Of a stretch of 64,000 bases of DNA, positions 8,332 through 64,000 are shown piece after piece. The position numbers and the translations under genes were made by a program. Positions within the stretch are counted from its first letter, which is position 1; every line of letters begins with the position of its first letter. The DNA comes from Humulus lupulus (taxonomy: Eukaryota; Streptophyta; Magnoliopsida; Rosales; Cannabaceae). The stretch covers positions 106,345,143-106,409,142 of the forward strand of contig NC_084799.1 of assembly GCF_963169125.1 (NCBI RefSeq), given 5' to 3'. A model generated the notes under the pieces. The model worked only from the letters and a program-made list of their open reading frames with translations. It had not been told where the DNA came from and did not search any database.

Positions 8332-8337
8332 AACTAG

Positions 8338-13523: not shown

Positions 13524-14105
13524 GGGAACCAACATGGATTCCATTATTGTAATTCCTATTCCCATCCATTCATGATATTAAATGTCCAAAACAATATTCA
13601 TTAGCCTCATTATGCTAAGAAATCTTAACGAGTGAATCAGAAGATCCAATGAACAGAAACAAGAGTTCATGAATACTTAGGATTTGGATTGATCTAGTAA
13701 GAATCAAATATTTATGTCAAATGAAAAGTTTATACAGATAATGAATTCTTATCAAACTTGTCATATATAATCTCTATTATATACAACACATTTACTAAGA
13801 TGTCTATCCAAGTCAGTAATCTGAATCTAGCTCACTTGCATCCCGTAAGCTTAGTAAACCGCACTATTAACCATTCATTAAAGATTTCATACTTTAATAT
13901 GCTACTGACTATTTTATTCATTATATATGATCTAAATTCTCTCATACTAATATAGATCATACTATCATGAATGAATAAGGAATTTTCTTGATATTATCAT
14001 ATAATTAATTCAAAGAATAATTATTAAATTCAAATAAATAAAATTGTTCTTTTATTTAATTTCAATAAAATGTCTTTACATACTTTTAGGGCATTAATCC
14101 TAAAA
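13524..14105 (-). mobile_element. Copia 3' LTR, start part only
   Basis: On the minus strand it begins TTTTTAGGATTAATGCCC; other copies begin TGTTAGGATTAATGCCC, so the terminal TG is mutated. About 580 of roughly 2030 bases are present. It aligns by eye with 33690-34279, 38353 onward and 47908 onward. The cut edge abuts the Tekay LTR at 13523. The small ORF at 13758-13955 lies within the LTR repeat and is not a gene. Confidence 0.8.
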
Positions 14106-14120
14106 ATTTCCCACTTGCCC
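14106..14120 (-). other. Copia polypurine tract
   Basis: GGGCAAGTGGGAAAT on the minus strand, between the RNase H stop and the 3' LTR. It is the expected plus-strand primer site. Confidence 0.65.
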
Positions 14121-14630
14121 TCAAAGCAAGTGATGCAACTCTCTTAATCCCATGTTGCATACGTGACCCATGAACGAATTTGCAGGAAGTGTCTTGGTAA
14201 ACAGGTCAGCCATGTTCTGTTCTGATGCTATCTTCATAACAGTCACATCACCATGGTGTACAATCTCTCTAAACAGATGGTATTTCCTTTCTATATGCTT
14301 TCCTCTATTGTGGCCTCTTGGTTCCTTGGAGATAGCTACTACTCCACTATTGTCATAGTTTAGAATTAGTGGCTTATCCATATCTGGAACTATTTCTAGA
14401 TCAGTGTAGAACTTTCTCAACCAAACCGCCTCTTTAGCTGCTTCACAAGCCACTACGTATTCGGCTTCCATGGTTGAATCTGCTATGCTAGATTGTTTAA
14501 TGCTCTTCCAGACCACAATTCCTCCACGAAGAGTGAACATTGACCCAAACATCGACTTACGACTGTCTTTGTCTGATTGGAAATTAGAATCAATGTATCC
14601 AGTAGGGTTCAACTCACCCCTGATGTACAA
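14121..14630 (-). pseudogene. Copia RNase H
   Basis: Carries the Copia RNase H motifs GYIDSNFQSDKDSRKS (catalytic Asp region), STMEAEYVVACEAAKEAVWL (catalytic Glu) and NYDNSGVVAISK (third Asp), and ends with the conserved tail DLFTKTLPANSF. Its stop lies directly at the polypurine tract, the normal end of a Copia polyprotein. This last segment of about 169 residues is intact, but it is separated from RT by a short out-of-frame gap (14631-14695). Confidence 0.88.
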
Positions 14631-14695: not shown

Positions 14696-15784
14696 CTAAG
14701 ATTTTGATTGATAACGACTCACAATCCCTACTACATAGCATATGTCGGGTCTTGTACACAACATGGCATACATTAGACTCCCAACTGCTGAAGCATAGGG
14801 ATACTTTCTCATATCCTCTTCCTCCCGAGGTGTCTTAGGACATTGTTCCTTGGAGAGAGTAACTCCATGTCTGGACGGTAACTGACCTTTCTTGGAATTC
14901 TCCAAAGAGAATATTTCAAGCACCTTATCGATATAATTATCCTGAGAAAGTGCCAAGAGCTTGTTCTTCCTATCCCTTAGGATATGGATTCCCGGAACAT
15001 AGCTTGCCTCACCCAAATATTTCATTTGGAACTTTTCAGCTAACCATTTCTTCATGTTTGACAATGTCTGTACATTGTTGTTAATGAGCAGAATGTCATC
15101 CATGTAAAGAACTAGGAAAACTACTACGTTTCCTTTGATGTATTTGTACGCACATGCTTCGTTAACATTCTGTTCGAAGCCATATGTTTTAATTATTTTA
15201 TCAATGGTGATATTCCAAGATCTAGATGCATGTTTTAATCCATAAATGGATTTCAGCAACTTACACACCTTTTGATCTTCTCCATTCTTGATGAACCCTT
15301 CTAGTTGTACCATATAGATACTTTCATCAAGATAGCCATTTAGAAAGGTTGTCTTGACATCCACTTGCCATATCTCATAGTCATAGGTGGTAGCTATGGA
15401 TAAGAGGAAGCGAATGGATTTAAGCATGGCCACGGGAGAAAATGTTTATTCATAATCAACACCTTCTCTCTGAGTGTAGCCTTTGGCTACTAGCCTTGAT
15501 TTTGAAGTCTCCACTTTCCCATCTACACCTCTTTTCTTCTTGTATACCCATTTTCATCCAATGGGCCTGACATCTTCATGTGGATCTACAAGTTCCCAGA
15601 CAGAATTGGAATACATAGATTCCATTTCTTGGTTCATGGCTTCTTGCCATTTCTCCTTTTTAGAATCATCCATTGCCTCTTTGAAGGTTAATGGATCATC
15701 CTTGTCTATATCAGAAACAAGGACATGTGCCTCATGTTTGTAGTGAATAGGTTGTCTCGCAATCCTCCCACTACAATGTTGCAC
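14696..15784 (-). pseudogene. Copia reverse transcriptase
   Basis: Two pieces. 15554-15784 holds the N-terminal fingers (KEKWQEAMNQEMESM, then SVWELVDPHEDVRPIG). 14696-15433 holds the palm and thumb: VDVKTTFLNGYLDE, the GLKHASRSW block, and the catalytic box LYMDDILL (YVDD in many relatives, Met here). It ends in the conserved VGSLMYAMLCTRPDICY block. A frame break and a stop (about 15440-15553) separate the pieces. Confidence 0.88.
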
Positions 15785-23691: not shown

Positions 23692-24852
23692 TTACTGATA
23701 ATACTTGCGCATGTGTTCTCCATTCCAATAGCGGGGAACGAGATCTCCATTTAAGCATGCAAGTTTGTATGTGCCTGGATGAAGGACTTCTTCAATTTGG
23801 TAAGGTCCTTCCCAATTGGGTTTGAGCACTCCAGCAGTAGGGTCGCGGGTATTTAAGAAAACTCGTCGCAACACCAAGTCACCGACGTTGAATTTTCTTT
23901 CTTTAACTTTGGAGTTAAAGTACCGGGCGAATTTTTGCTGGTATGCAGCAACTCGGAGTTGAGATTTCTCTTGTATCTCATCGATTAAGTCTAGGGACTC
24001 CATCATTAGCTGGCTGTTCTGATCTTGGTCGTAAGTCAAACGCCGATGTGAGGGGGGATCTAACTCAACAGGCAACATGGCCTCATACCCATAGGCTAGG
24101 GAAAATGGAGTATGTCCTGTTGCTGTTCGGTGAGACGTTCTATACGACCACAAGACTTCAGGCAACTGCTCTGGCCACGCTCCTTTAGCTTCTTCAAGTC
24201 TTTTCTTCAGGGTGTCTTTAAGAGTCTTGTTTACGGCTTCGACCTGCCCGTTTGCTTTGGGGTGTGCAACTGAAGAAAAGCTTTTAATAACTCCATGCCT
24301 CTCGTAGAAATCGGTGAATAAGTCGCTGTCAAATTGGGTCCCGTTGTCTGAAACTATCTTCCTGGGCAAACCATATCTGCATACAATGTTCTTGATGACG
24401 AAGTCAAGAAATTTCTTGGTCGTGATGGTTGCGAGTGGTTCAGCTTCGGCCCATTTGGTGAAGTAATCAACTGCCACAACTGCGTACTTTACTCCGCCTT
24501 TCCCTGTGGGCAAGGATCCAATCAAATCTATCCCCCATACTGCGAAAGGCCACGGGCTCTGCATCTGCTTCAGTTCGTTTGGAGCTGCCCATGGAATCTT
24601 GGAGAACCTTTGACATTTATCACACCTTTGTACATACTCCATCGAATCCTCGTTCATCGTTGGCCAGAAGTAGCCTTGCCTTAGAATCTTTTTTGCCAAA
24701 CTCTGCCCCCCAGCGTGATCCCCGTAGAAGCCTTCATGCACCTCCTTCATGAGTCCCTTAGCCTTTTCTGGTGTAACGCACCTGAGTAGTGGCATCGAGA
24801 ATCCTCTTCGGTACATAACACCATCGACCAGTATGTACCTAGCAGCTCGTCT
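23692..24852 (-). CDS. Tat integrase
   Basis: About 374 residues from the first Met at 24816; upstream in-frame residues reach 24841. Zinc-binding HEGFYGDHAGG...CDKCQRF is present. The core has GIDLIGSLPTG (first Asp), KIVSDNGTQFDS (second Asp) and HPKANGQVEAVNKT (catalytic Glu). The C-terminus has the NFNVGDLVLRRV-like module, here KFNVGDLVLRRV, and ends NGEHMRKYYQ. All catalytic residues are visible and the frame is intact, so this domain looks functional. A TAA at 24853-24855 separates it from RNase H, where relatives read through as one polyprotein. Confidence 0.92.
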   Translation of the reverse strand, partial: RRAARYILVDGVMYRRGFSMPLLRCVTPEKAKGLMKEVHEGFYGDHAGGQSLAKKILRQGYFWPTMNEDSMEYVQRCDKCQRFSKIPWAAPNELKQMQSPWPFAVWGIDLIGSLPTGKGGVKYAVVAVDYFTKWAEAEPLATITTKKFLDFVIKNIVCRYGLPRKIVSDNGTQFDSDLFTDFYERHGVIKSFSSVAHPKANGQVEAVNKTLKDTLKKRLEEAKGAWPEQLPEVLWSYRTSHRTATGHTPFSLAYGYEAMLPVELDPPSHRRLTYDQDQNSQLMMESLDLIDEIQEKSQLRVAAYQQKFARYFNSKVKERKFNVGDLVLRRVFLNTRDPTAGVLKPNWEGPYQIEEVLHPGTYKLACLNGDLVPRYWNGEHMRKYYQ

Positions 24853-26998
24853 TTACAGAGTTCTGGCTTTGTTCCTATCTGTTGGGAGCGTACCATTTGT
24901 CAGGTACTCCAAGTAAGGCGCCATCCATGTATCCCCCATTCGAATCTCCATACTGGACTCAGTTGCTTGTATGCTCGGCTTACTCAATCTTTCAACTGGC
25001 ACAATGTTCAAAGTGTCAGCATCCTTTGCGCTCGCGAGTTTGGCTAAGGCATCCGCGTTTGAATTCTGATCTCGCTGGATCTGCTGGAGGGTGTACTTCG
25101 TGAACTGGGCTAGCAGGTCCTTTGTTTTATTTAAGTAGGCTACCATTTTCAAACCTCGCGCTTGATATTCTAATAGGACCTGATTCACCACCAACTGTGA
25201 ATCACTGTAGATATCAAGCGTCTTTATGCTCATATCCTTTGCCATTCTCAATCCAGAGAGGAGTGCTTCATATTCTGCTTCATTGTTTGATGCAGTGAAG
25301 TCGAACCTGATGGCGCAATGAAATCGATGCCCTTCCGACATTATCAATATCACTCCCGCTCCAGCGTGGGATTCGTTGGATGAACCATCCGTGAATAGCT
25401 TCCACGAAGGAGTTTTGTCTTGAGGCTCGGGCGCTTCAGGCTGTTCGCACTGCTCGCTGTCTGGGAGTTCGGTGAACTCTGCAATAAGATCGGCTAAGAC
25501 TTGTCCTTTTACTGCTGCTCGCGGTGAATAGGTTATGTCGAACTGTCCTAACTCGACTGCCCATTTTAACAATCGCCCAGCCGCCTCGGGTTTTTGGAGG
25601 AATTGCCGAAGGGGCTGATCAGTTAGAACTGTGATAGGATGGGCTTGGAAGTAGGGGCGCAACTCTTTAGAGGCAAGGATCAAGCAATATGCTAACCTCT
25701 CGATTGGCGGATATCTCAATTCTGCCCCGATCAGTCTCTTGCTGACATAGTAGACTGCTTTTTGTGCACCTTCTTCTTCTCGCACTAGCACCGCGCTGGC
25801 AGCAACTTCAGTAATCGCCAGATAAATAAACAAATTTTCTCCTTCGATCGGCTTTGATAAGATGGGAGGCTGTGCCATATGAGCTTTCAGCGCCTGGAAT
25901 GCTTGCTCGCAGTGTTCTGTCCACTCAAACTTTTTATTCCCCCTAAGTAGATTGAAGAATGGGACGCACTTGTCTGTTGATTTTGAAATGAATCTACTTA
26001 GGGCTGCGATTCTTCTGGTTAAACTTTGTACATCTTTGATCCTTTCTGGCGACTTCATGTTGATCAGGGCCTTTATCTTGTCGGGGTTGGCCTCGATTCC
26101 TCTTGAATTTACGATAAACCCCAAAAAATTCCCTGATCCGACTCCAAAGGAACACTTGAGGGGATTTAATTTCATTTGGTACTTGTTTAACACATTAAAG
26201 CACTCTTGTAAATCCCTCACATGCCCTTCTGCTTTCTTAGATTTTACCAGCATGTCATCCACATATACCTCCATGTTTACACCGATTTTCTCCTTGAACA
26301 TGTGGTTGACTAGCCGTTGGTAAGTCGCACCTGCGTTTTTCAGCCCGAAGGGCATTACTCTATAGCAATACAAGCCCGTATCAGTCCGAAAGCTGGTGTG
26401 ATCCTCATCAAGGGGATGCATGCTAATCTGGTTACAGCCCGAATATGCATCCATGAATGTAAGGATCTCGTGCTCTGCAGTAGCATCGACCAGCTGGTCG
26501 ATCCTTGGGAGTGGGAAGCAGTCTTTTGGGCAAGCTTTATTGAGGTCTGTAAAATCCACACAGGTCCACCACTTGCTGTTAGGCTTGGGGACCAACACCG
26601 GATTGGAGACCCACGACGGATAAAAAGCCACCCTTATGAATCCATTCTCCTTTAGCCTTTCGACTTCTTCTTTTAAGGCTCGTGATCTATCTTTATCGAG
26701 CAGCCTTCTTTTTTGTTGCACGGGTGGAAAGGTCTTGTCTATATTCAAGACATGGCTGATTACTGTAGGATCTATCCCAACCATGTCTTTATGCGACCAG
26801 GCGAAAACTTTCTGGTTCTCTCGCAAGAATTCCACCAGTGCGTGCATTGTGGTAGGCTCTAAGTTTTTCCCGACCTTTATGACTTTGGTTGGGTCTTCTT
26901 TGTCGAGTTGGACCTCCTCCAGGTCCTCGACGGGTCCAACATTTTCTTCAAAATCCCCAAAGCGAGGATCCAAATCTCCATCCTCACTTTGGGCAACA
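24853..26998 (-). CDS. Tat reverse transcriptase, RNase H and archaeal-like RNase H
   Basis: A single open frame of about 706 residues. RT: FIRVAFYPSWVSNPVLV, PLPRIDQLVDA, FMDAYSGCNQI (palm Asp) and the catalytic EVYVDDMLVKS. The first RNase H follows after PILSKPIEGENLFIYL; the first Asp position reads LAIT here, which is unusual and suggests a weakened Ty3-type RNase H. Then a second RNase H: LFTDGSSNESHAGAG (Asp), ASNNEAEYEALLSGL (Glu), DIYSDSQLVVNQV (Asp) and NSNADALAKLAS (Asp), all present. The dual RNase H marks the Tat lineage. It copies element RNA into DNA in the cytoplasmic particle. Confidence 0.93.
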
Positions 26999-27000
26999 CC

Positions 27001-27732
27001 CTATTTGGTGACTTCATCACCTGATTGGGCTTGCGTGTCAACTGCCATCTGCAATCTATCTGGGGCAGTGCTCCTCGGCGTTCCGCTTTTCGCCTTTGTG
27101 ATCGAGGCGTTGTAGCACTCCCTGGCTTCTCTTTGGTTTCCCAAAACGCGTCCTACCCCCGCGTCTGTTGGGAACTTCATGGGTAGGTGCCACATAGAGA
27201 TGACGACCCGTAGATCAACCAGTATGGGCCTTCCAATAACGGCGTTGTACATCGAAGGACAATCGACCACTACAATATTGGCGAGTAATGTCCTTGTTGC
27301 AAGCGCTGTACCTGTCGTTACTGGGAGTTTGATCATTCCGGCTGGGGCGAGTCCTTCTCCAGAGAAGTCGTATATCGTTTGATTGCAGGGCTCCAAGTCT
27401 TTTACGGACAATTTCATGCGTTCCAGTGTTGACTTATACAGGATGTTCACTGAATTTCCTGTATCGACCAGTACTCTCTTCACCATCATATTGGCCATCT
27501 GGATATCCACGACCAGTGGATCGGAATGTGGGAACCGGACGTGTTGAGCATCGCCATCAGAGAAGGTTATCCCACCTTCCTCTGACCGAGCCTTTTTCGA
27601 TGCACGGTCCTCCACAATCATCATCTCGATGTCCTGGTCGTGGCGCAGAGTCCGAGCATATCGTTCTCTGGCCTTTCCGCTATTTCCCGCAAGGTGCGGG
27701 CCTCCACAGATGGTTAAGAGTGTTCCAGCCAC
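27001..27732 (-). CDS. Tat aspartic protease
   Basis: About 243 residues, with KRVLVDTGNSVNILYKSTL (D-T-G active site) and AVIGRPILVDL (the flap-to-C-terminal motif). It processes Gag-Pol. It is separated from gag by a TAG at 27742-27744 (CAG in the sister copy) and from RT by a TAG at 27001-27003 that is also present in the sister copy at 56999-57001. Confidence 0.88.
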   Translation of the reverse strand: MAGTLLTICGGPHLAGNSGKARERYARTLRHDQDIEMMIVEDRASKKARSEEGGITFSDGDAQHVRFPHSDPLVVDIQMANMMVKRVLVDTGNSVNILYKSTLERMKLSVKDLEPCNQTIYDFSGEGLAPAGMIKLPVTTGTALATRTLLANIVVVDCPSMYNAVIGRPILVDLRVVISMWHLPMKFPTDAGVGRVLGNQREARECYNASITKAKSGTPRSTAPDRLQMAVDTQAQSGDEVTK

Positions 27733-27741
27733 GGGGGTAGG

Positions 27742-29940
27742 CTATAATGGTGGCGAGCGTTGGCGTGTGGACGCTTGCTCGTTGCCACCTGGAGCTTCTC
27801 GTTGGGAATTTCCCGAGGCCCGTACGTATCTTCTCAAGTGTCCTTGTCTAATAAGGAACTCGATTTCGTCTTTTAACTGGTTGCATTCATTAGTGTCATG
27901 TCCGTAGTCGTTATGGTAACGACAGAACTTGGTAGTGTCTCTTTTCGAAATGTCCTTCCGAATGAGTCCAGGTTTCTTGTAAGGCACACTGGAGCTTCTG
28001 GCCTGGTAAACCTCTCCCCGAGACTCAACGAGGGTAGTGTAGTTAGTGAACCGAGGTTCATAACGATTACCCTTTGCTCATTTTTTGTCGGAGGTGGAAG
28101 GCTCGTTATACGGCCGTTTTCCACCATTCTTGCCATTACCGTTGCCATTCCCGTTGCCTTTGCCGTTGCCATTAAGTTTGGAACCATTGGCGGCTTTGGC
28201 GGGTTCGACAGCCTTCTTTCCCTTGCTCGAGGGTTTTCCATCATCAGCAATGGCTTCTTCGAGTTTGATGTAGCAGTCAGCTCGGTCTAAGAATTCTTGT
28301 GTGGTTCTTACTCCTTCTTTTTGGAGACTTTTCCAGAGGGGAGAGCAACGTTTAACCCCTGCGGTAATGGCCATCATCTTGCCTTCGTCTCCTACTATTT
28401 TGGCTCCAGCCGCCGCTCGCATAAAGCGCTGGACATAATCCTTCACTGACTCCCCGTCCTGCTGGCGAATTTTGACTAGGTGGTTTGCTTCGGTTGGGTG
28501 CACACGACCAGCGTAGAATTGTCCGTAGAACTCCCGTACGAACATTTCCCAAGAAACAATGCTCGCGGGAGGGAACTTGAAGAACCACTCCTGCGCAGCT
28601 TCAGAAAGTGTTGCAGGGAAGATCCTGCACCGAGCGTTTTCGGACACTTTCTGGATGTCCATTTGAATTTCAAACTTATTGACATGCGAGACTGGGTCTC
28701 CATACCTGTCAAAGTTTGGAAGCGTAGGCATCTTGAATTTGTTGGGGGTTTCGACGTTAGCTATCCTTTGAACGAAAGGAGTGCCTTTCCTCCTATCGTG
28801 GTCGATGTAAGAAGTCCGTCCTCCGACCAGCTGCTGCACCGCCTGGTTGAGGGCGTTTATCTGGGCCTGCACTGCGGTAGGAATCGCGGCGGCCTCTGTT
28901 GCCGGGGGGATGTTCTTGCCGTGCCTCTCGCGGCGATCATTGAGTACATCTCTCAAGTCCTCTTCTCTTCTCTGCTGCTCGCTACCCCCGAGCCGGTCGA
29001 AGACATTATTTTGTCTGGGCTGCTCCCCAGCATCCTGTCTATTTGGTTGGTCATCTTGAGGTACATGGCTCCTGCCTTTACCTCTTTCTCCATTCTTCCC
29101 ACCGGCATTTCCTTTACCTGAGTCAGCCTCATTGTATCCGTGGCCATCTCTGAACCTCGACTGGCTATGGTGAGATCGACTGTTCCCTCGATGTCCGTTC
29201 CTGGCTGAACCATCCCGAGCGTTAGAGGGTGGCCTGCGCTGGTCGTGGTGTCCCCATGCATCATCGTGTCGTGGGGGGCCCCGGACCGCAGAGCCTAACT
29301 CTGAGTCTCTCCTGTTGCCAGGAGGGTACTAACCTCTGTTCGGTGGGTTCGGCCCATCATCCCTACGGCGCCTAGGGCTGCGAGGCTGATGCTCGGCCCT
29401 ATTCTACCTCTGTTGCGGGGGATTACCCCGAGCAGCTTGGGATGGTGGGTGTGCCTCAGGATCCAGTGGGACATCGTCATGGGGCATCTGAGGCTGCTCG
29501 GGCCTTTGCGGACTCGAAGGCTGGATTGGTGGGCTTGGATTTGGACCCCTCTGGGGTGGTCCATTCACCGGTTGGTCGGGCTGCGAGGCAGGTGCAGTCT
29601 GATTTCTGGCCAATAGCAAGGCTGCCTCAAGGGCTGCCATGGCTTCGTTCTGGCGGGGGTCCACCTCCGCCTGTCTTTCACTCAATTCCGCGCGCTACCG
29701 ATCAATCTCCTGCTACTACCGTGCCATAACTTCAGCGGCAGTCTCCTGATTGGCCCTCAGACTAGCCAGCTCTTCCTGCAACGCGCCCAGAGTACTCTTC
29801 AACGTTGCATCATCCATTTCCTCCTCCTCAAAATCCAGTTGTGGCTCATCCTCTGCCATGCTTGTAGGAGGAGGAGGAGGTGGCGGGTTCGACGGTGCAG
29901 CGGCGGCTGCTTGCCCAGTTTTCTTTCCAGCTTTCGCCAT
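27742..29940 (-). pseudogene. Tat gag
   Basis: Starts MAKAGKKTGQ at 29938-29940. It has an acidic and Pro-rich N-terminus, then Arg/Asn-rich low-complexity sequence. The gag core lies at 28100-28900 (KFKMPTLPNFDRYGDPVSHV, then FPATLSEAAQEWFFKF). It ends with a variant zinc knuckle, CRYHNDYGHDTNEC (C-x2-H-x4-H-x4-C), near 27900. In-frame TAGs lie at 29716-29718, 29713-29715, 29695-29697, 29404-29406, 29329-29331 and 27742-27744. Most correspond to CAG in the + strand sister at 54-56 kb. The core itself (28078-28956) is uninterrupted. Confidence 0.88.
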
Positions 29941-49611: not shown

Positions 49612-51300
49612 CTAATTAGCCAAACATCCATCAAAAGAGGCACCAAAGATGGAAAAGTCATCCATGAAGATTTCTATACCTTTTTCCACTATGTCTAAGA
49701 AGATAGACATCATACATCTTTGAAACGTTGTTGGAGCGTTACACAACCCAAACATCGTTCTTCTAAATGCAAATGTTCCATAGGGGAACGTGAAGGTGGT
49801 CTTTTCTTGGTCCTCCGGTGCAATGGGAATTTGATGGTACCCCGAATACCCATCCAAGAAACAATAATAAGGATGGCCTACCAATCTGTCCAATATCTGA
49901 TCTACAAAAGGCAAGGGGAAATGGTCCTTCCTGGTTGCCTTATTCAGTTTACAATAGTCAATACAAATTCTCCACCCTGTTACCGTACAAGTTGGAATCA
50001 GTTCATTATTATCGTTCTTAACCACCATCATGCAACCTTTCTTCGGGACTACCTGAATAAGACTAACCCATGCACTGTCAAATATTGGGTAAATCACCCT
50101 TGCATCCAACCATTTAAGGATTTCCTTCCTTACCACCTCTTTCATTGAAGGATTAAGCCTCCTCTGAGAATTGATACTAGGCTTACTATCCTCCTCTATT
50201 AATATACGATGCATCACTGTTGAAGGACTGATACCCTTAATATCTGCCAAAGTCCACCCAATTGCTAGTTTATGAGCCCTCAACACCCTAAGTAGCTTCT
50301 CTTCTTCCATAGTAGACAATGAAGCAGAAATAATAACCAGTGGTGTATTATTCTCACCTAAATATGCATATTGAAGGTGACCAGGCAATGTCTTTAACTT
50401 AAGGACTGGTGGTTTCTCAATAGAAGGGAGCGGTCTCTCAAGCACTTGCCCTAATTCCACATATTTCTTTTTATAAACTTGCCCCGCTGAGTTCAACCAC
50501 TTAACATATTCGATGGTTGTAGTACCATCACACTCCTCTTGACTTGCAACCAAACTCAACTCAAGTGGGTCCTCAATAGACTTTACCCCTTCACCTTGTT
50601 CCTCCAATACACTGACATTGAAATAAATACTAGCTGAAGGGTATTTCAAGGCTTTAAAGACATTTAAAACTACCTCATCGCCTTGTACTCTGAACCTTAA
50701 CTCACCCTGCTGGACATCAATTAACGCCTGCCCCGTGGCTAAAAATGGTCTTCCCAATATAATAGGCACGTTCTCATCTTCCTCCATATCTAATACAATA
50801 AAATCTGATGGGAAAATTAACTTATCTACCTTTACTAGGACATCCTCTAGAATCCCACGAGGATGCTTAATAGACATGTCTGTTAACTGCAGTGTCACTG
50901 TAGTGGGGTGCGCTTCTCCTAACCCCAATCTCCAATAAACTGACAATGGCATTAAATTAATACTGGCACCCAAATCACAAAGAGCTCGCTCACACTGAAA
51001 ATTTTCTATGGTGCACGGGAAAGTAAAACTGTCTGGATCCCTTAAATTATGAGGGAGCTTCCTCTGTAAGATGGCGCTGCACTCCTCTGTCAAAGCCACT
51101 ATCTCAAAATCCTCCATTCGCCTTTTCTTGGATAATATATCCTTCATAAACTTCACATAACTGGACATTTGCTCCAAACCCTCAGTGAATGGTATGTTGA
51201 TGTGAAGTTTCTTAAACACCTCAAGAAACTTGGTGAATTGCTTATCGAGATTCACTTTCCTAAACCTATGAGGATACGGTAATTTAGGAGTAGGTTCCAC
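49612..51300 (-). pseudogene. Athila protease and reverse transcriptase
   Basis: An open frame of 562 residues. The protease part has ALCDLGASINLMPLSVY (the D-L-G-A variant typical of Athila) and NVPIILGRPFLATG. RT has QVVPKKGCMMVV, WRICIDYCKLNKATRKDHF, CFLDGYSGYHQIPIAPED and the catalytic EIFMDDFSIFG. The frame stops at 49612-49614, just after the catalytic core, and resumes at 49608. It is surprisingly long and intact for an element that lacks its 3' half. Confidence 0.88.
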
Positions 51301-51867
51301 AATCTCAACTTTTGGATTACCCTTTTTCTGAAGATCATCAGTGGCCCTCTTCTTCTCTCTGGTGTAGCTACCCTTTTATCTTGACTCTTCACCTCTTCCT
51401 CTGGAACTTAAACTAAAGGCCCTTTATAACTAGTCCCACTCCTTAAAGTGACCGCTTGACACTGCTCTTTGGGGTTCACTTCTGTGGAACTAGGAAAATT
51501 CCCTTGTGGTCGACTAGATGTAGTTTAGCCAACTGACCCATTTGTGCCTCCAAATTCCTGATTGAAGACCTTGTCTCTGTCATGAATTGATTTAATTGGT
51601 CAGGTTGAGCTGTTGGTGGGTTCATTGGAGGATTTGGTGGTGGATGAGATTGGTGTGGGTTTTGATCATAATAAGGCCTAGGGTGTAGTCCATAGGTTGG
51701 TTGGTGAGGTGGGTGTTGAGGTGGATATTGTGGCTGCAGTCCTTGGTTATTTTTCCAAGACAAGTTGGGATGATTCTTCCATGCAGGAGTATATGTATTT
51801 GAGTAAGGGTTGTGGGAAGGTCTTGGGAAGTTGCCAATAGCATGTGCCTATTCCAAAGGCAAACTGA
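51301..51867 (-). pseudogene. Athila gag C-terminal linker
   Basis: Low-complexity Pro/His/Gln-rich coding (51476-51763, QGLQPQYPPQHPPHQ) with a coiled segment (QFMTETRSSIRNLEAQMGQL) that precedes protease in Athila elements. Frame breaks lie on both sides. Confidence 0.65.
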
Positions 51868-52783
51868 TCACTCTGTTGAGCAACTAGCATTGCTCGAGCA
51901 TTGCTCATAAGAATGCGGACCCCCACAAATCTCACAACTCATTACATTCTGTACTTGAATTGCTTTGGTGGCGAGGCTATTCTGTTGCAATTGCTTGGTT
52001 AGAGATGCCACTTGAGCGGTCAATAAAGCAATAGGATCGACCTCTAAGACTTCTGCCACCTTCTTAGTCTCACACTTAGTTGGCCAATTGTAGTTGTTCA
52101 TGGCCATCTCTTCCAGTAATTCATAAGCTTCATTAGCACTTTTTCTCATAAATGCTCCTCCCGATGCTGCATCAATAATATTTCCCCCCAAACCATTATA
52201 AAATGTGTGCACCAACAGCCACTTCTCTATTCCATGATGTGGGCACTTCCTTTGCAACTCTTTAAAATGTTCCCACGCATCATATAAGGACTCCCCATCC
52301 AGTTGATGGCAGTTATTAATTTCTCCTCTATATCGGGCTAACTTAGTAGGGGAAAATATTTCCCAAGAAATTTCTGAGCCAAATCTTCCCAAGTGGCTAT
52401 AGAGTTGGCTTGTAATGAATTCAACCAACTTTGGCTTGTAATGAATTCAACAAACTCTTAGCTCTGTCTCTTAATGAAAATCGGAATATTCTTAATCTGA
52501 CAACATCGTTCATTTTGAATGTTTGACACAACTCTAAAGTGTTGGTGATGTGGAGATTTGGATCCTCATTTGGTAATCCCCCAAATTGTACAAAATTCTG
52601 CACCATTTGAATAATCGAGGGTTTTATCTCAAAATTATTCGCCTAAACATTAGGAGGACGAATACATGAATGTATCCCCGTAACAGTAGGGAGTACATAA
52701 TTTCTCAATGGCGGATCAGCCTCAGGTGCTGCATTACCCATATATGCATTATTGTTGACAACATTATTCTCATTCTTAACCAT
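51868..52783 (-). pseudogene. Athila gag
   Basis: Start MVKNENNVVN at 52781-52783; a stop near 52642 follows PPNV. The second piece (52421-52606) has [20 protein letters not shown]. The third (51868-52428) has GESLYDAWEHFKELQRKCPH, HTFYNGLGGNIIDAASGGAF, ANEAYELLEEMAMNNY and the knuckle CEICGGPHSYEQC. A short duplicated stretch, TTGGCTTGTAATGAATTCAA, lies at 52405 and 52431 and causes the frame change between pieces two and three. Confidence 0.85.
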
Positions 52784-53416: not shown

Positions 53417-54023
53417 TGTTATCCAAAAAACAAACACGGATGACGTGGCAGGTGATTTCTGAACACGTGGCTGACACTTGGCAGAGTTCTTTTAGAGTAT
53501 CGACCAGTAAGATATTCTAAGCATAACGATTGAGTTTATCTTACGACCAGCCTGGTCGTACACTCCGCATATTTCAAAATAATTCTGTAAAGATCATAGT
53601 CAATCCCAAGATTGTCTCCAATAATTCCTGATTATCTGATTAATTAGGAGAGAATATCTGTAACAAATTAATGTAATCCTCCTTGAACCTATAAATAGTG
53701 AAAGATAGTTCAAGGAGGGGACTTTTTGGCTTTTTGATTACTTGAGAGTATTAATTTGCGAGAGAATTAGAGCTAAGGGATTGCGATATATTGTTTGTTT
53801 TTGAAAGGTCTATGAAACTCATAGAACCCTTGTTCTTTGATCACCCCTTCGAGATCTAATATCAATAATAGCTCAAGTGGACGTAGGTTATTACCAGTTT
53901 CTGGGGCCGAACCACTATAAATTCTTGTGTGCTTTATTTTTTTTGTCATTATATTCATTCCAACATATCTGTCCACATCAAGCATTTTGACTCCGTGTCA
54001 ATTGACCAAAATCTGGGTCAACA
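53417..54023 (+). mobile_element. Tat 5' LTR (607 bp)
   Basis: TGTTATCCAAAA...GGGTCAACA. It has TATA 53691-53698 inside a perfect 11-base inverted repeat (53679-53689 CCTCCTTGAAC, 53709-53719 GTTCAAGGAGG), and near its start ACGTGGC and CACGTGGC motifs. The left flanking 5-mer is GATAC. Confidence 0.9.
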
Positions 54024-57001: not shown

Positions 57002-57605
57002 GGTGTTGCCCAAAGTGAGGATAGGGATTTAGATCCTCGCTTTGGGGATTTTGAGGAAGATGTTGGACCTGTCGAGGACCTGGAAGAGGTCCAACTTCAC
57101 GAAAAATACCCGACCAGAGTTATAAAGGTCGAGAAGAATTTAGAAGCAACAACGAAGCATGCACTGGTTGAATTTTTGCAGAAGAACCAGGAAGTTTTTG
57201 CTTGGTCACACAAAGACATGGCTGGGATAGATCATGCAGTTATCAGCCATGTCCTGAACATTGACAAGAGTTTTCCACCCATGCAACAGAAAAGAAGGAT
57301 GCTCGATAAGGATAGATCGAAAGCCTTAAAGGAGGAAGTCGAAAGACTGAAGGAGAATGGGTTCATCAGGGTGGCGTTTTATCCATCGTGGGTCTCTAAT
57401 CCAGTACTGGTTCCCAAGCCTAATGGCAAATGGCGAACCTATGTGGATTTCATAGACCTCAATAAAGCCCGCCCCAAGGATTGCTTCCCACTCCCAAGGA
57501 TCGACCAGCTGGTCGATGCAACTGCAGGACATGAGATCCTCTCCTTAAGGGATGCATACTCTGGATACAATCAGATCAGTATGCATCCCCCTGACGAGGA
57601 TCACA
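57002..57605 (+). pseudogene. Tat reverse transcriptase, N-terminal part
   Basis: In frame from GVAQSEDRDLDP through EVERLKENGFIRVAFYPSWV, DCFPLPRIDQLVDA and RDAYSGYNQISMHPPDED to the break at 57605. The palm motif reads LRDAYSG where the sister has FMDAYSG. The catalytic YVDD box would lie beyond the CACTA insertion. Confidence 0.9.
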
Positions 57606-57760
57606 CACTACACCAAATAACCCTTTCCACAACATTTAAGTATAACTCTTTTAAAAAAGTGTTATCCTAAACCCATAAAATTTGGCAGTACATAAAAAAA
57701 ATGGCGCACAAATAATTGGCGGCAAATGAAATAATTGTGCCAAATATTGTATTATTTCAC
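57606..57760 (+). repeat. CACTA terminal and subterminal repeat region
   Basis: CACTACACCAAATAACCC is followed by the palindrome ATAACTCTTTT/AAAAGTGTTAT (about 57642-57665) and repeated TTGGCGGCAAAT/TTGTGCCAAAT motifs. In this superfamily transposase binds such subterminal repeats. The inverted partner TGGTGTAGTG was not found in the window. Confidence 0.75.
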
Positions 57761-58042
57761 TTGCTATTATCATTTTCTAAATGTACATATCTCATTCTCT
57801 CTCTTGACTCTCTGTCTCCCTCACATCTATCTAAACCTAGCAGAAATCTCCCTACCCAAATCCCAAATTTTCTCGAACCTCCGAGACCTCTCTAAAAAAA
57901 TTTCCAAACTTTTCTAGAGGAAATTCTCCAAATTTCCCATAAATTTCCCCACAGCCTCAAACTCTCAGCTCTCCCTACCTCTCACCGAAATCCCAAAATT
58001 CTAGTCCTCCGTCGTTCGAATCCTTCCAGTGATGAATTCCCG

Positions 58043-58448
58043 ATGAATAAGACTGCCCTCACTGGTAGTTCTACTAGTCGTGTGGTGGTTGGCTGCCACG
58101 GGATCCGAATCAGACCTTGGCCGCATCCGAATCCAACTGAGGTCATGAAGGCGCACCAGATTATTGACACGGTTCAGAGGGAGCAGAGGCGTCAATTTGG
58201 AGTCAAGAACCCTAGAACCGTCATTGTGGTGACTCCCTTCACATGACCGGTCTGATGCACTCGCTGATGCTGGTGCCATACGAAGTCGTCTGGATCGTGC
58301 TGGAGGCTGGTGGAGCTAGCAATGAGACCGATTCGATCCTCGCCAAGTAGGGACTCCGGACCATTCACGTTGGATTTGAGCAGGGGATGCCAAATTCTTG
58401 GGAGGGTCGTCATCGATTGGAGGCTCAGATGAGTCTTCGTGCATTGAG
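58043..58448 (+). pseudogene. IRX14-like: IRX14-like GT43 xylosyltransferase, exon 1 fragment
   Basis: The source gene family builds the xylan backbone in the Golgi. 58043-58236 encodes SRVVVGCHGIRIRPWPHPNP and QREQRRQFGVKNPRTVIVVT; after a deletion, GLMHSLMLVPYEVVWIVLEA and MPNSWEGRHRLEAQMSLRAL run to 58448, in front of a clean donor GTGAGT. About nine family residues (a TYVRTFQ-type stretch) are missing at 58238, which shifts the frame. A TAG at about 58347 stands where a Ser codon is expected. The N-terminal membrane anchor is absent. A CT-rich stretch at 57780-58030 looks like the source gene's 5' UTR. It cannot encode an enzyme. Confidence 0.87.
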
Positions 58449-60890
58449 GTGAGTTCATGGTACTTTTGCTCAGCTCAGTTGTTGATTTTAGCGTTTATGT
58501 TAGTTTTGTTTCCAAAATTGAGCTACATTTATGATACTTGATCTTGATATATAAATAAATTAGCAAGGTGATTCTATACTCTCTGTTCTCTATTCGCACC
58601 TTTCTTTCCTCACTTATTTTGTTCTTACTTTGATACAAGTTTAGGTTCATATTTTAAATTATTTGAATATGGCAGTTTTAATTAATAATAGTCCTTTAGA
58701 TTTGGGCTGTGTTCATTTTTGTGTTTGTGTGAGTTTTTGGATTTTTCATTAACTTTACTGTATAATTATTTATTTTACAACAATTTTATAGTCTAATTAT
58801 TGATTATGAGCTCCCTTTTTGTTGTTTGGTTTGTTAGTACTGATACTTTACAAGGATGATTGACCTAGTTGCTGATTATTGTCCATGATTCATTCTATAA
58901 TTAAGACAGAAAGTATGCTTTTTAGTTTGGAAAATTACAAGAGGCATGGGGTCTGTGGTGTACAAGCTTGCTGCTACAAATTTTTCAACTTTATTCTTTT
59001 TTATTTGATCAAACTGATGTGCTTGTTTGTTTATGTCTCAAACAGAAGTGGCAGCATATAGAATGGTCAATATTGAAGTGAGCTATCCCATTTGATGTTT
59101 TCAGGTACCTTATATGATGTAGTAATTAATGTATAAACCTGATTTATGTGTCTCTTATGACAAACTGGTGTTAGCCCCATTGATACATGCCAATCTTGCT
59201 TAAGGTGTTCAAAAGAAATGGATTATGTGTTTTTGTTTTTAATCTTTAGTGCTTTATCAAATGATATACTTCCTTAACGGTAAATTGGCCATAATAATAT
59301 ATCATTACATTTTGAGCACACCATGTCACTATGTTAGGTGCCTTTCGACATATTTTAGGAAATTGCTCAATGTTGGTTCTTTTGGATTTTTGTGATCTAA
59401 ACAATATAGTTGAATCTATTGTCTCAAACATCAATGGTGTACTTTGTTGTTGGCTTTTCAATGTTTAACGTTATATATTGACTTTGATTTGATGAAGTGG
59501 AATGTTGTGTCTGCAAAATGCCTATTCAAGTTTATCTCTTTGAGAGTTTCTTCACTATAGTACTTTATCAAGCTTAATTGTGTTTTTCTTTTTGGTTTTA
59601 TATATTTTGACAGCTTTTTTTTTTTAAGATTTACCTATTTGTAATTGTGATTACTTCATTGAATTTGACTTGATACGACAGTGTTAGTCTTTTATTTATT
59701 GAATCCTTATGAAATTCTTAGACAACTTGAAGGCGAAGGTGCTTGCCTGCTTTGATTTTTGTCACTTCTGTGCTTTGTTTGCTGATTCAAATTTGTAGTG
59801 TTCTAGTTGTTTTTTTATCATTTGTCATTCTACCTGAGAAAATTATGTCATTATCTTTCTAAACTATTTGTTAGTGTCGAAGTTGCTTTGCTTTATCAAA
59901 ATACTGAATGACAGGACCTTTTTAATCATAAGTTTTATTTTCTTTTGGATGGTGATTGATTTGTGAAGAATAAGAAGTCTTTGGTTGTTGATTAGTCAAC
60001 TATTTGAGTTTATAAGATCTTTGGTCTTGGCATAAAATCTTCACCAAGGCTTTATGCCTAGGGAGAAATTACTTAAAGTTTCATAACTGGCCAATAGAAA
60101 TGGAAAAAGGAGAAAAAAGGCATATTATTGTGACTCGTTGGTCCCTAGCAGCAATATTTTGCAGAGAATTGAAATTGATGTTAAAATGTGTTTTAAGACA
60201 TATAGGATGCCCTTTTCTTTTACTTGCCAATATATTGATTTATGTATTATTAACTATGTTTTCTTTAACTAAATGTCTGTATATACTATTAGACGTGACG
60301 ATAATTCTTTAGTTCATTTTGGCCTGCTCTACCCTTTCACCGTGTTTGTCTTAGTCCTTAATGATTTTTAAAAACTTGAATTACAAAGTTTCAATAAAAG
60401 GAGGAAAAAAATAGTCCAGGTCATGTATTACCTTACACTAGTGCCAAACCTATTGAGTTTTGTTGTAGAGGAATACCACCAAACTAATCAAGACATGCTG
60501 TTAATTTCACTAACTTTTATTAAATGCCGATACACGGGTGTTGATATATAGCCAAAAAAATAAAGAAAACTAAAAGAGAAAAAAGGGATGCTGATACTGC
60601 TGAAATGACTTAAAAAGGTCTAATTTCTTTGTTTGCTGATGAGAAGTAATTATTATGTTGTGCCTTGATGAATTTTGCTTATCCTTGCTACGTTGTTAGA
60701 GCTATAATGGTTTAGTTTAACAGGTTAGTCAAGATTTTGGCTACCATATACGCTGATTTATTCCTGCTCATATGTATAAGCTATGCAACTGACACTTGAT
60801 TTTACACATGATGCCACTTGTTTAAAGGCTAATATTCACTATAAGTAATGTTCCGTGTTGATTTTTTATTTTATTTTTTGGGTGGTGCAG
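58449..60890 (+). other. Intron-like T-rich DNA inside the CACTA element
   Basis: T-rich on the + strand, as plant introns are. It starts with the IRX14 donor and ends with the V-ATPase acceptor (GGTGGTGCAG). A possible short exon at 59045-59103 (acceptor CAAACAG, donor GTACCT) contains a stop and matches nothing I know. An ORF at 60100-60312 is hydrophobic and unrecognised. No further gene fragment could be supported. Confidence 0.5.
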
Positions 60891-61038
60891 AGCTAACGCA
60901 CAGCAGCCAAAACTCTTTGTTGGTATGATCTTGATTCTCATCTTTGCTGAAGCTTTGGCTTTGTATGGTCTTATTGTTGGTATCATTCTCTCATCACGAG
61001 CTGGCCAATCAAGAGCAAATTCTTACTGTATGTCCTAA
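60891..61038 (+). pseudogene. VHA-c-like: V-type ATPase proteolipid subunit c, last exon
   Basis: After the acceptor GTGCAG the frame reads [18 protein letters not shown] and [20 protein letters not shown]. This is the fourth membrane helix of the 16-kDa proteolipid, including the Glu in the FAEALALYG motif that carries protons in this family. The normal protein ends SRAE or SRAD; here five extra residues (SYCMS after SRAN) precede TAA at 61036-61038, so a breakpoint or mutation lies at the end. The coding exon is otherwise uninterrupted. The upstream exons are absent. Confidence 0.92.
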
Positions 61039-61869
61039 AACAAGTTCTAGCTAGTGATAAATCATAGTTATGATTAGACTGAGATTGGCTATAGTGCATG
61101 CTTAGATTCAGGACATACCGCATGGAAATTTGGTACCTAATAGACTTTGGAGTCCTATGCCCCAGTTGGTGCTTATATTGGAAATCTAGTACTGGTTGGA
61201 TAAAATGGGATTATTGGCTACACATAGGGTTAGGGACTCAATGGGATGCAACAGACTTATTTATTTCTTTGGTCCTCTTTCTAAAATTGTTTGGTTTTAG
61301 TTGTTTGCAAATAGTTTTATTCTTTATGTTTCATGATTTCTTTTTGTTTCCTTGATTAATTCTATTTGTAGCTGAGTTAAACTACCCCTTTTATACATTC
61401 TTTCAACTTTTTTTTTACCCCTGTTTTACAATTCACACAGTATGATCCTATTTATAGTTTTTGAAACTCTATGTCTACTCTTTCATATAGGGGCACAAGA
61501 TAGAAGTGTGTTGGCTTGGTGTGATTATGTGTAAATTTCCCTGTCAATTTACTTCAGGAACTTTCATAACTTATCTATACATATGCATACACACTTTCAA
61601 AACTTGCAAGCCTACTGGTACACATTATGTATTTTGGCCATCATCTCATATATCTATTGTTTGCAAAATTTCAGGCTAATTGTTTGCAATATTCTTTTGG
61701 GTTTAAAATTCAATGCTCATGCTATATAACGCTCTATTCCAGACTTGAAGACTTACACGATTCTTGTGAATTCTCTCTAGGTATATGTTAGTTTAGCTAG
61801 GTAAATTCAATTATTTTTTGTCTTTGAACTTTTACCTTATTTATAATCATTTGAAGATATTATAAACAG

Positions 61870-61962
61870 CTCAATGTTTTGGAAATCTTCCTGACTGCAT
61901 ACCAGAACCAAATGAGAAGCTTGTGGAATTTGGAATAGGAGGGGGTTGCAATTCTTGTGCTG
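61870..61962 (+). pseudogene. ARMC7-like armadillo protein, single exon
   Basis: Between acceptor TATAAACAG and donor GTATGTTC the exon reads LNVLEIFL, then, after a one-base deletion near 61892, DCIPEPNEKLVEFGIGGG and CNSCA. This matches the first armadillo-repeat region of ARMC7-type proteins (family pattern LDLFLDSL...NE.LVEFAIGGLCNLC). The frameshift kills it. Neighbouring exons are missing. The spacers 61039-61869 and 61963-62795 are T-rich, with no recognised gene. Confidence 0.78.
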
Positions 61963-62795
61963 GTATGTTCAACACTATTAACTGGTGATCTTAACTTGAT
62001 CATATTTATTGCGATGCTTGTTTTCATAAACAGATAGATGTGTTCTATTAATTGATAATTTCTTGCATTAGTATTTTTTAATAAAGCTTATGAATAAAAT
62101 TAAGCTAACACTAAAGTATCATTAAAGCCAAAAAAAAAATTACTCATCACCCTTTATTCATATTAAGTGTCTTTTTTTTTATCATTTTGGATCTTCATAT
62201 ATCTTTTCAGTTATGAAAGTGATAATTAGTTTTATATTTATTTATATGTAATTTTCAAGCTCAATCCATCTTCAAAGTTGAACTATAGAGTTATATAAGT
62301 ATATGTTATATATAGCAAATAGATCACCAAATCATTTTTTGTCAATACATATTTGCATTTGTACTACTGTTATCTTATATCTTGTTTTACCATCATCATA
62401 TTCATGTGGGCTTATTATTAATTTAACATATTAAGATTTTTTTTCTCCATTACTTATTCTATACTTGTAGTTTAAATCTGAACACATTAAAGAAATTATC
62501 ATTTAGCATTTATTTTGTAAAGTGACCTTGCAAGTGCTTCCCATGCTTATGAGTGATATAGCTTTTTTTTTTAAAGTACTGATATAATTTCGTTTAGAGT
62601 AAGACTTATGTTATGATTATGTTCCCTTGTGCTTATTCTTAGTTTTCCACTAGTATGAGACTCTGTTCTTAGTTGGGTTCTTGTGACTCTACATTGTTTT
62701 GTTGGACTTTGGTTCTTCTTTTCCTAGCTAGTTTCATTTAATGTGTTAAGATATTATTGTCTGCCTTAATATGGTTTGGTTTTTATCATGAATAG

Positions 62796-62895
62796 TGATG
62801 GTGCAGCTACATTAGTCCTAGTGAGTCGAGAGAAGGCGCTTCAACTTGGATTGCAAGTAATTGCAAAGATTAAGGACTATGCTGATGCAGCTCAG
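62796..62895 (+). pseudogene. AACT-like: Acetoacetyl-CoA thiolase, single exon
   Basis: Exon between acceptor ATGAATAG and donor GTACTCC. It encodes SDGAATLVLVSREKALQLGL and VIAKIKDYADAAQ, the loop-domain segment SDGAAALVLVSGEKA...GYADAAQ of cytosolic acetoacetyl-CoA thiolase, the first enzyme of the mevalonate pathway. A-to-T and G-to-R changes occur in the SDGAA and VSGEK motifs, but the frame is open. No other thiolase exon is adjacent; 62896-63606 is AT-rich, with no supported gene. Confidence 0.88.
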
Positions 62896-63606
62896 GTACT
62901 CCAATGAATTGGCTTCCTAGTTCTAAGACCTGTAATTGTTTTTGAGCTTATCTTGATTGAATTCTCCTGATCGGCTAGCCAGCTTATAAATAAAGCTAAT
63001 TGGCTAACCCAATTGTACTCATCACTTGGTTCATTTTCAATAATAAAAATCAATTTCTCATTATTCTCTCATTTTTAATATGTGTCTCCAAATAATAATG
63101 GATAGTTAAGGTATATTTATTATATATAACAGTAGTTGTATTTGTTAGTTTTAAGTTGACTAAATTTTATTCTCTGTTAGTTGATTAGTTGTAATTTTCT
63201 TGTTCTTGGCTATTGATATTGTGTGAGTGGTTTTAGCTTAATTTATTTGTATTTTATCTTAAAAACTTTTTCGGTGGTGTTGCTGTGATACAAGTAAACA
63301 CTAGAGACATATTAAAGATGGTTCTCACCAGAGCTTACACACTTGGGTAATGAAAGAAAGTCCCATTTTTTCCTTATGATTATACAATGAAAAAGTTGCC
63401 ACTTGATTTATTATATTACTAATTTGCCATATTTTTTTGGTAAATGTCTAATATTGGAGTTTTCTCTTGGTGTTAGACTTTGCTTAGTCTTGGTAACAAA
63501 ATATTTTAGCACAAGAGCTCACCTTGCTTTAATTTGTCATATATATACCTTGCTTAGTACTTTTTTCTAATACTAAGAGTCTAAGACCTCTACTTTTTGT
63601 CTTCAG

Positions 63607-63656
63607 TACACTCCTGCAATAGATATTTGGAGCATAGGATGTATTTGCTGAAATAC
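63607..63656 (+). pseudogene. MAP kinase exon fragment
   Basis: After the acceptor TCTTCAG the exon reads YTPAIDIWSIGCI, the subdomain IX motif of plant MAP kinases (YTPAIDIWSIGCIFAE). A two-base loss in the FAE codons gives C-stop at about 63649, and the homology ends shortly after AEIL in the shifted frame. About 50 bases remain. The plain phrase YTPAIDIWSIGC is typical of the TDY-type plant MAPKs. Confidence 0.78.
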
Positions 63657-63882
63657 TTCTTAAAATTGTGAAATGTGTGCATTCTTATTTGTTATTTATT
63701 TTTTTATTTTTTTGTTGTACTCACTTGATTTTCAAGTTATTACTTTGCTGTTCTAACTAATCATCAATAGTCCTGTTTATTTTATTGAAACATTTTATTC
63801 TCCTTGTTCAGTTTCCTATTGAATGCTCTTTTACCTTGAGACTAGTATGAATAGAACTACTGAATTTTGTATGTCCAAACAG

Positions 63883-64000
63883 GAGCCAGAGTCCTTGGGA
63901 TGCTTGTTAGAGTTTTCATGGAATGGACAGAAGTCACTGTCATTGAAAGGGGAAACCCATAAATTCCTAGAAGATGGTGATAAAGTTATCATCACTAGTT
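63883..64000 (+). pseudogene. FAH-like: Fumarylacetoacetase exon, running off the window
   Basis: After acceptor GTCCAAACAG the open frame reads EPESLGCLLEFSWNGQKSLS and EDGDKVIITS. This matches the C-terminal part of fumarylacetoacetase (family EPES.G.LLELTWNG.KP), which splits fumarylacetoacetate in tyrosine breakdown. No stop is present before the window ends, and active-site residues lie further upstream in the protein and are not here. The context suggests a captured fragment, but the true end is outside the window. The spacer 63657-63882 is AT-rich without a gene. Confidence 0.85.

Follow-up and report, generated by a model that had tools for sequence, protein, structure and literature searches.

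A CACTA transposon of Humulus lupulus very probably filled with genomic pieces of about nine unrelated host genes in one direction

The right part of a 64,000-nt stretch of Humulus lupulus DNA (the window hereafter) belongs to a non-autonomous CACTA (En/Spm superfamily) transposon. Its interior is very probably made up of genomic pieces that stem from about nine unrelated host genes with a name, and every piece runs from the left end of the element to the right end. The element is a non-autonomous, gene-carrying member of a CACTA family of the Tgm-Express1/Tpn1/Pack-CACTA kind. This kind is already known; what we describe here is a large family, with copies swapping arms and with exon pieces that are one-directional as far as read.

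The termini are inverted and start with CACTA (CACTACACC... on the left and, as reverse complement, CACTACAAG... on the right). The left one had been claimed in a first-pass annotation made from the window only, and extension past the window bore this out. The right end, TTCTTGTAGTG, lies at extended coordinate 69106, ACA stands on either side, and the reverse transcriptase (RT) of a Ty3-type retrotransposon, which the element interrupts, regains its frame (...DEDHT SFRTD...) when the element and one ACA are omitted; 57606 is therefore a true terminus. The left coding part of the retrotransposon was located too. Both the ACA and the remaining RT had been expected to the right and are indeed found there; the inverted terminus TGGTGTAGTG that had also been expected is absent from the 40 kb retrieved. 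With TTCTTGTAGTG as the actual right end, the terminal inverted repeat is perfect over no more than 7 bp. Subterminal repeats are present: units resembling GTGTTATACTAAAGTGTAGTATAACAC recur in the right 400 bp, and a GTGTTAT motif is found near the left end too, with internal matches in both directions. Helitrons have TC...CTRR ends and no target site duplication (TSD), and this assignment was rejected given the CACTA ends and the 3-bp TSD. There is no transposase gene in the element, the longest stop-to-stop frame in its 11.5 kb having 116 codons. Genes for TNP2-type transposases (Transposase_21) are numerous in the genome, with 8,572 candidates at first look; among the 150 candidates scored, none was tied to the family ends. 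Five of the scored places on C1 fall in the range that both end lists cover, and each of them is more than 229 kb away from the nearest listed family end.

Table 1. Features of the window and their continuation in extended coordinates.
Feature	Position	Strand	Remarks
Left LTR of the host Ty3-type retrotransposon	53417..54023	+	Right LTR at extended 75968-76573; LTRs 96.0% identical
Target site duplication ACA, left copy	57603..57605	.	Right copy at extended 69107-69109 (L010:2107-2109)
CACTA element, part in the window	57606..64000	+	Whole element 57606-69106 extended (L009:606-10000 + L010:1-2106), 11,501 bp
Left terminus and subterminal stretch	57606..57670	+	About 75-78% identity over 60-66 bp to relatives with otherwise different left arms
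IRX14-like GT43 piece	58007..58547	+	3' part of exon 1 (end 58448, donor GTGAGT) and start of intron 1
V-ATPase subunit c last exon with stop codon	60891..61038	+	Acceptor retained
Exon, presumably ARMC7-like	61870..61962	+	Acceptor and donor retained; no Pfam match
Acetoacetyl-CoA thiolase exon	62796..62895	+	Acceptor and donor retained
Exon piece, presumably of a MAP kinase (MAPK)	63607..63650	+	Acceptor retained; too short for searches
Fumarylacetoacetase (FAH) block	63860..64000	+	Runs to extended 64045; acceptor and donor retained at the exon (63883-64008)

The six exon pieces that had been read in one orientation are all present, in + orientation, but do not make up the full set, as more pieces lie rightwards. 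The right half of the element holds further exons from SLU7, DnaJ and phosphofructokinase, the last weakly supported (PDB E 1.3 and 1.4, below a designed protein at 0.067), and four exons without a gene name (extended starts 66927, 67071, 67905 and 68309). The V-ATPase c piece has a Pfam match, and the GT43 piece, whose frame is broken by losses and stops, has one under the family cut-off and also aligns to the IRX14 source gene. PDB sequences back both FAH and thiolase, and FAH is also supported by its source gene; later thiolase exons are missing from this copy and found in the C1 copy. In the Pfam search with short exons, 0 of 9 peptides reached a family cut-off. AG is present at five acceptors (V-ATPase c, ARMC7-like, thiolase, MAPK and FAH), the number counted at first, and GT at four donors (GT43, ARMC7-like, thiolase and FAH) instead of three, that of FAH being just beyond the window; the sites were chosen by eye at the exon limits, making AG/GT a letter check and not an independent prediction.

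The family is large. In the 2.48-Gb genome there are 955 exact occurrences of the left-end 21-mer and 1,817 of the right-end 24-mer, with none of either in reversed controls. Among the 44 left ends listed on C1 below 119.9 Mb, 22 have a right end on the same strand no more than 30 kb away; with flipped strands this holds for 1 of 44. The median for the paired left-right ends on C1 is 9,504 bp. A second complete copy (C27:102583843-102593257, 9,415 bp) is without the 3765-6461 stretch. Because its joint has a 6-bp TCTATT overlap and the C28 sequence spans the 6461 point, we consider that 2.7 kb were deleted in C27, and a gain by the window (C9) copy was dropped in favour of this deletion. Between the two copies, raw K2P is 0.050 in the first 404 bp and 0.022-0.025 in the three long blocks that they share. 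Three further complete relatives with matching TSDs, in C4 (8,675 bp), C1 and C28, share parts with the window element while their arms differ, with HMG-CoA reductase (HMGR; C4) and topoisomerase II (C28) in place of IRX14. The TSDs of the five complete elements (window, C27, C4, C1 and C28) are ACA, TGG, GAA, ACT and ACA, and two sampled elements have GTT and GTA; deviating ends among the other four complete relatives are the right one of C27 (CACTGCA) and the left one of C28 (CACGACA). The first-pass annotation had proposed a search for copies with the same fragment set, taking the set and order as not previously known; other copies do exist, and the set and order are partly common to them.

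Across the family copies, left or right arms of graded length are common and their partners are different. The HMGR-side junction is common to six loci, which diverge from the shared part at five separate points, and 17 partial matches reaching the right end of the query have 14 different start points. Microhomology of 2-6 bp is seen where three internal deletions were joined, and extra bases occur at one junction. Abortive gap repair would give similar junctions. In C4, the IRX14 intron persists for about 50 bp after the HMGR side, so the whole left side was swapped after the IRX14/V-ATPase joint had formed. An IRX14 stub in the topoisomerase II arm of C28 was considered and dropped, since only a few bases separate this joint from the IRX14/V-ATPase boundary, so that it cannot be ordered.

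A CACTA transposase would move the element in trans, acting on the ends. New combinations could come about when one element contributes its left part and another its right part, and the two are moved or repaired as one hybrid element, whether or not host DNA between them is included; internal deletion would follow. If transcription runs into the element, its sense exons could be spliced to one another, as in soybean Tgm-Express1. Stepwise capture after excision, through abortive gap repair and template switching and not by fusion of neighbour elements, is an explanation that we take seriously and yet doubt: the junction overlaps of 2-6 bp, one with extra bases, and the internal position of the pieces between retained termini agree with it, whereas copies joining the left arm of one lineage to the right arm of another are directly predicted by hybrid excision, and the IRX14 intron in C4 indicates a left side exchanged once the IRX14/V-ATPase joint existed.

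In the copies read, 14 gene captures were recognised and all have the same direction; tools support 8 of them well (two-sided chance for these 8, 2 x 2^-8 = 0.008). Of the 24 gene matches listed on C1, 15 lie no more than 20 kb from a listed family end that is consistently placed, and all 15 are sense, although the FAH match at 31724130 is doubtful, with a left-type 10-mer between it and the right end. It is unlikely that this uniformity comes from chance or from better recognition of one strand. Exons were identified partly by eye, the elements read throughout are few, several captures sit together in one element, and copies that go back to a single capture are not independent; but frames were listed on both strands for the window element, C4 and C28, and the 10 longest antisense frames of the window element have no Pfam match below E 0.04. 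We tentatively suggest that the family may act as a directional exon shuffler, where capture, or retention after capture, would be biased to the sense direction from the left end (a leader-like region) and arms would be freely exchanged, resulting in combinatorial, spliceable multi-gene exon strings in the genome. A one-direction rule for CACTA captures was not found in the portions of the open-licence PMC literature searched.

The CACTACACCA 10-mer at 57606 is the sole exact copy within the window, but it is little proof alone, since with one mismatch it has 4 matches there against 2.5 expected by chance. Separate insertions or relics of ordinary genes behind such a chance end, which the decay of the gene pieces might also suggest, are nevertheless extremely improbable in view of the exact right end, the ACA duplication, the resumed RT frame and the second copy with its own TSD, the two complete copies ruling them out.

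Source genes of two pieces are elsewhere in the genome. FAH derives from a multi-exon gene in C10 (C10:16743500-16748200), the block being 96.2% identical over 186 bp, including 23 and 37 bp of intron, and IRX14 derives from C1 (C1:309634800-309638600), so at least two unrelated loci, plus others, are combined in one element. The thiolase exon has two multi-exon candidate loci. The SLU7 piece is 80% identical to a C2 paralogue, one of three SLU7 loci, across exon, intron and exon, a value too low for a direct source. As intron sequence is retained in the FAH, IRX14 and SLU7 pieces, genomic DNA was copied, in agreement with the first-pass annotation, which had also anticipated parent loci in the same genome (found for FAH and IRX14, with conserved intron flanks) and had denied that this is a normal locus. 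A real fumarylacetoacetase locus is excluded because the element has a single FAH exon. Insertion of reverse-transcribed (cDNA) copies is hardly conceivable, as we found no support for it, splice acceptors and donors are retained, and the alignment of introns to genes refutes it for FAH, IRX14 and SLU7.

Transposons with gene fragments are a proposed route to new genes, and the collection of pieces has mostly been inferred from few elements. Here the order of events is readable: exact end motifs number 955 (left) and 1,817 (right), the assembly also contains source genes, several mosaics are complete, and one shared junction places an arm swap in sequence. If the one-direction pattern is true genome-wide, transcription-linked capture or selection on splicing would be needed; the hybrid-excision model alone does not predict it.

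Pack-MULEs and maize Helitrons are mobile elements that carry many gene fragments. They belong to other superfamilies, while the present element has CACTA termini and a 3-bp TSD; both are named in PMC1947982 and PMC13317346. The soybean CACTA element Tgm-Express1 (PMC1947982) has 5.7 kb and five unrelated genomic gene fragments, including introns and canonical splice sites; the host transcript contains the five as spliced exons, and this implies a single direction. Our element is likewise packed with unrelated genomic gene fragments, but it has 11.5 kb, nine named genes and more, and a different gene set, and its family has about a thousand or more ends. Tpn1 of Ipomoea nil (PMC5105172) is a non-autonomous CACTA family of 339 elements (mean 7,081 bp) with conserved terminal regions, insides replaced by host genic sequence and 3-bp TSDs. 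These traits are shared here, where ends are more numerous and arm exchange is documented; unlike Tpn1, which has the putative autonomous element TpnA1 (PMC5105172), no such element was found among the 150 candidates scored. In Pack-CACTA or Pack-TYPE elements, which likewise are non-autonomous CACTA elements, the coding DNA comes from several loci, maize Pack-CACTA having the most distinct loci per element; the sections consulted in PMC8903248 describe neither a one-direction rule for captured exons nor graded arms. For Arabidopsis Pack-CACTA, a hybrid-element model was proposed (Catoni 2019, via PMC13317346 and PMC8903248), and, as far as these sources outline it, it fits the arm exchange observed in this family.

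The C9 element, the CACTA transposon whose left end lies at window position 57606, extends to 69106 in window numbering carried rightwards (extended coordinates; L010:2106 in the fetched stretch) of the searched assembly (2.48 Gb, 121 contigs; window G000:C9:106345143-106409142). It is 11,501 bp long, starts CACTACACCAAATAACC, finishes TTTTTTCTTGTAGTG and has a perfect inverted repeat of 7 bp (CACTACA), being bordered on left and right by ACA. The first-pass annotation had thus rightly expected a CACTA right end with ACA on rightward extension, but the terminus it predicted, TGGTGTAGTG, is absent from the 40 kb fetched. The element sits in a Ty3-type retrotransposon whose LTRs share 96.0% identity over 607 bp and whose left piece matches Pfam RVT_1 below the family cut-off (E 1.4e-4). 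The rest of its RT was found to the right, as anticipated: once the element and one ACA are removed, the RT reads as a single open frame (...ISMHPPDEDHT SFRTDTGLNCYKVMPFGLKNAGATYQR...). The C9 element moved as a unit in the past. Other retrotransposon coding pieces (RVT_1, RVT_2, integrase, gag) are located at 8247-9392, 14696-15442, 23692-29325 and 49612-52443.

All six host-gene pieces first named for the window, GT43 (IRX14-like), V-ATPase c, ARMC7-like, acetoacetyl-CoA thiolase, MAP kinase and fumarylacetoacetase (FAH), are present in one orientation, and every gene piece of the element is on the + strand, including those to the right of the window, where four unnamed exons were also found. 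Pfam matches the V-ATPase c piece (E 1.1e-10) and, below the family cut-off, the GT43 piece (E 1.9e-4), while PDB sequences match those of FAH (E 3.3e-9) and thiolase (E 6.6e-6); the two others we take to be ARMC7-like and MAPK. In the SLU7 search against PDB sequences, designed TPR proteins score better, matching the second exon. At the limits of 14 exons, with splice sites picked by eye, the acceptor side is AG in all 13 readable cases and the donor side is GT in 10 of 11 read, the exception being the second SLU7 exon.

Gene pieces right of the window (extended coordinates), complete relatives of the C9 element and two fetched end pairs
Feature	Position	Strand	Length	TSD	Support or remark
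Phosphofructokinase exon	64687-64742	+			PDB sequences, weak, E 1.3
SLU7, two exons	65340-65481, ~65584-65716	+			PDB sequences, E 1.7e-6
DnaJ-B	66625-66763	+			PDB sequences, E 2.9e-7
C27 copy			9,415 bp	TGG	
C4 copy			8,675 bp	GAA	
C1 copy			~20.4 kb	ACT	includes nested different 9.4-kb element
C28 copy			~12.7 kb	ACA	left terminus CACGACACC
L054, paired ends on C1			8,398 bp	GTT	
L055, paired ends on C1			8,109 bp	GTA	

Three of the genes were captured from genomic DNA. The search for parent loci located FAH on C10 and GT43 on C1. From 59 matches of the FAH profile, only C10:16743500-16748200 has exons from profile start to end; the captured block aligns with it over 186 bp (96.2%), with intron included on both sides (23 bp upstream, 37 bp downstream), and five of its 42 encoded residues differ. 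The terminal exon accounts for 24 of the 59 matches, one being the source, therefore 23 other places carry it, the C9 element included. Three middle exons are found at each of C8:110911234-110913327 and C9:110532633-110534741, and C10:4500904-4501278 may be another gene or a pseudogene. The GT43 source is C1:309634800-309638600, and the IRX14 piece corresponds to the end of exon 1 and the first part of intron 1; from 33 profile matches, 20 outside the source hit profile 1-71 or 1-68, 9 of them already known as family members from the DNA search. The captured SLU7 stretch aligns exon, intron, exon with a C2 locus (80%), one of three multi-exon SLU7 loci. For thiolase (95 matches, mostly 3' exons only), the multi-exon candidate sources are C10:14774241-14777235 and C2:108194161-108196624.

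Further copies, whose search had been proposed, are numerous: at least 74 matches for the 6,395-bp query, 63 for the right 2,106 bp and 48 for an inner 2,555-bp stretch (40 scored of 1,304, 2,287 and 402 candidates, respectively). Four complete elements were read besides C9. Deletions occurred at short overlaps: C27 lacks element positions 3765-6461, with a joint across TCTATT; C28 lacks 2546-4295 (overlap ~2 bp); and the later thiolase exons, kept to the stop codon in C1, were lost from C9 at a 2-bp overlap. The C28 joint 7111/7859 has extra bases. The C9 and C27 copies differ by a K2P of 0.022-0.025 across three long blocks and of 0.050 over the initial 404 bp. The element nested in the C1 copy (~4353-13797 of L043/L044, C1:254096500-254116499) starts CACTACTAGAAA, finishes TTGTTGTG and has TTA on both flanks. 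An insert of very high GC content (up to 79% per window; reversed-assembly positions 13109-14533) lies in the otherwise AT-rich right arm of C28.

Copies also exchanged arms. The left arm of C4 is HMG-CoA reductase (HMGR) in three pieces (Pfam E 1.9e-27, 3.9e-36 and 4e-20), and its inner right part, with just weak HEAT/TOG-like Pfam matches, is presumably XMAP215/MOR1-like; the left arm of C28 carries topoisomerase II (TOPRIM_C, E 6.3e-9). In six loci (C4 and five others), element position 889, within the IRX14 intron, is where a common upstream stretch meets the shared part; in C4 this stretch flanks the HMGR piece on its 3' side. Since ~50 bp of this intron remain before the V-ATPase part, the HMGR-side exchange is later than the IRX14/V-ATPase joint. 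The shared part ends at 3498, 2987, 2012, 1955, 1955 and 1553 in the six loci. Besides C9, 4 matches span the entire 2,555-bp query. Another 17 are partial and run to its right end, with 14 distinct starting points; in at least 4 cases the match is the second piece of an internally deleted copy. The same 13 bp of intron are missing from each of the four IRX14-arm copies examined (C9, C27, C1 and L046) at position 889 (window 58494), exactly where the HMGR side is joined in the other lineage (C4:232612920); a single break point may underlie both. A right-arm match to the family's last base (89%; C4 assembly positions 1993-2439, L050) lies ~3.6 kb left of the C4 element in the same orientation, apparently placing two family members close together, as the hybrid model requires.

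Genome-wide, the left 21-mer CACTACACCAAATAMCCMTTT occurs exactly 955 times and the right 24-mer TTAAAARCATTTTTTCTTGTAGTG 1,817 times, both reversed controls giving 0. Within the part of C1 covered by the listings of both motifs (100 places each; below 119.9 Mb), 22 of the 44 left ends can be paired with a right end on the same strand no more than 30 kb away (median length 9,504 bp), compared with 1 of 44 when strands are flipped; half thus have no exact partner in reach. Two pairs were fetched, chosen for short length and not at random. L054 holds, in sense and with an in-frame stop codon, most of what we take to be an LRR receptor kinase gene, 95% identical to C3:5164764-5165918 within a 617-residue open frame; no gene was recognised inside L055. 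A ~1-kb pair of left-type 10-mer and right end lies at C1:31724857-31725876, with an FAH exon match ~0.6 kb to its left.

Read from the left end, 14 of 14 recognised captures are in sense. C9 has nine of them and C4 two (HMGR and MOR1); C28 adds topoisomerase II, L054 the LRR kinase, and L046, a C2 copy whose right end lies outside the fetched DNA, the end of a receptor kinase. Eight have clear tool support (GT43, V-ATPase c, thiolase, FAH, SLU7, DnaJ, HMGR and topoisomerase II). The direction was also checked in 24 listed C1 matches of four gene families (all those for FAH, GT43 and thiolase, plus two kinase rows above 90% identity). A listed family end lies within 20 kb, at a consistent place, for 15, all in sense, these being copies of four captures and not independent; one of them, an FAH match (C1:31724130), is doubtful since it is separated from the right end by a left-type 10-mer. 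The other 9 have no such end, and 5 of them are source or paralogous genes.

The source of transposase for the family was not found among 150 scored of 8,572 first-look Transposase_21 candidates, of which the five places on C1 comparable with both end lists all lie more than 229 kb from a listed family end. Dozens of the 150 have an identical bit score (352.4), and the 851-residue frame is intact in most of these, suggesting recently active CACTA families. That the C9 element belongs to an already known kind of transposon is well supported, and the number of copies, an order of events that can be read off and the single direction of the recognised captures make it more than a lone curiosity. 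A CACTA transposase would mobilise the elements in trans, and neighbouring elements could form hybrids, as described for Arabidopsis Pack-CACTA (review PMC13317346; PMC8903248). The sense exons might be spliced together; in soybean Tgm-Express1, a single transcript likewise contains all five fragments as spliced exons (PMC1947982).
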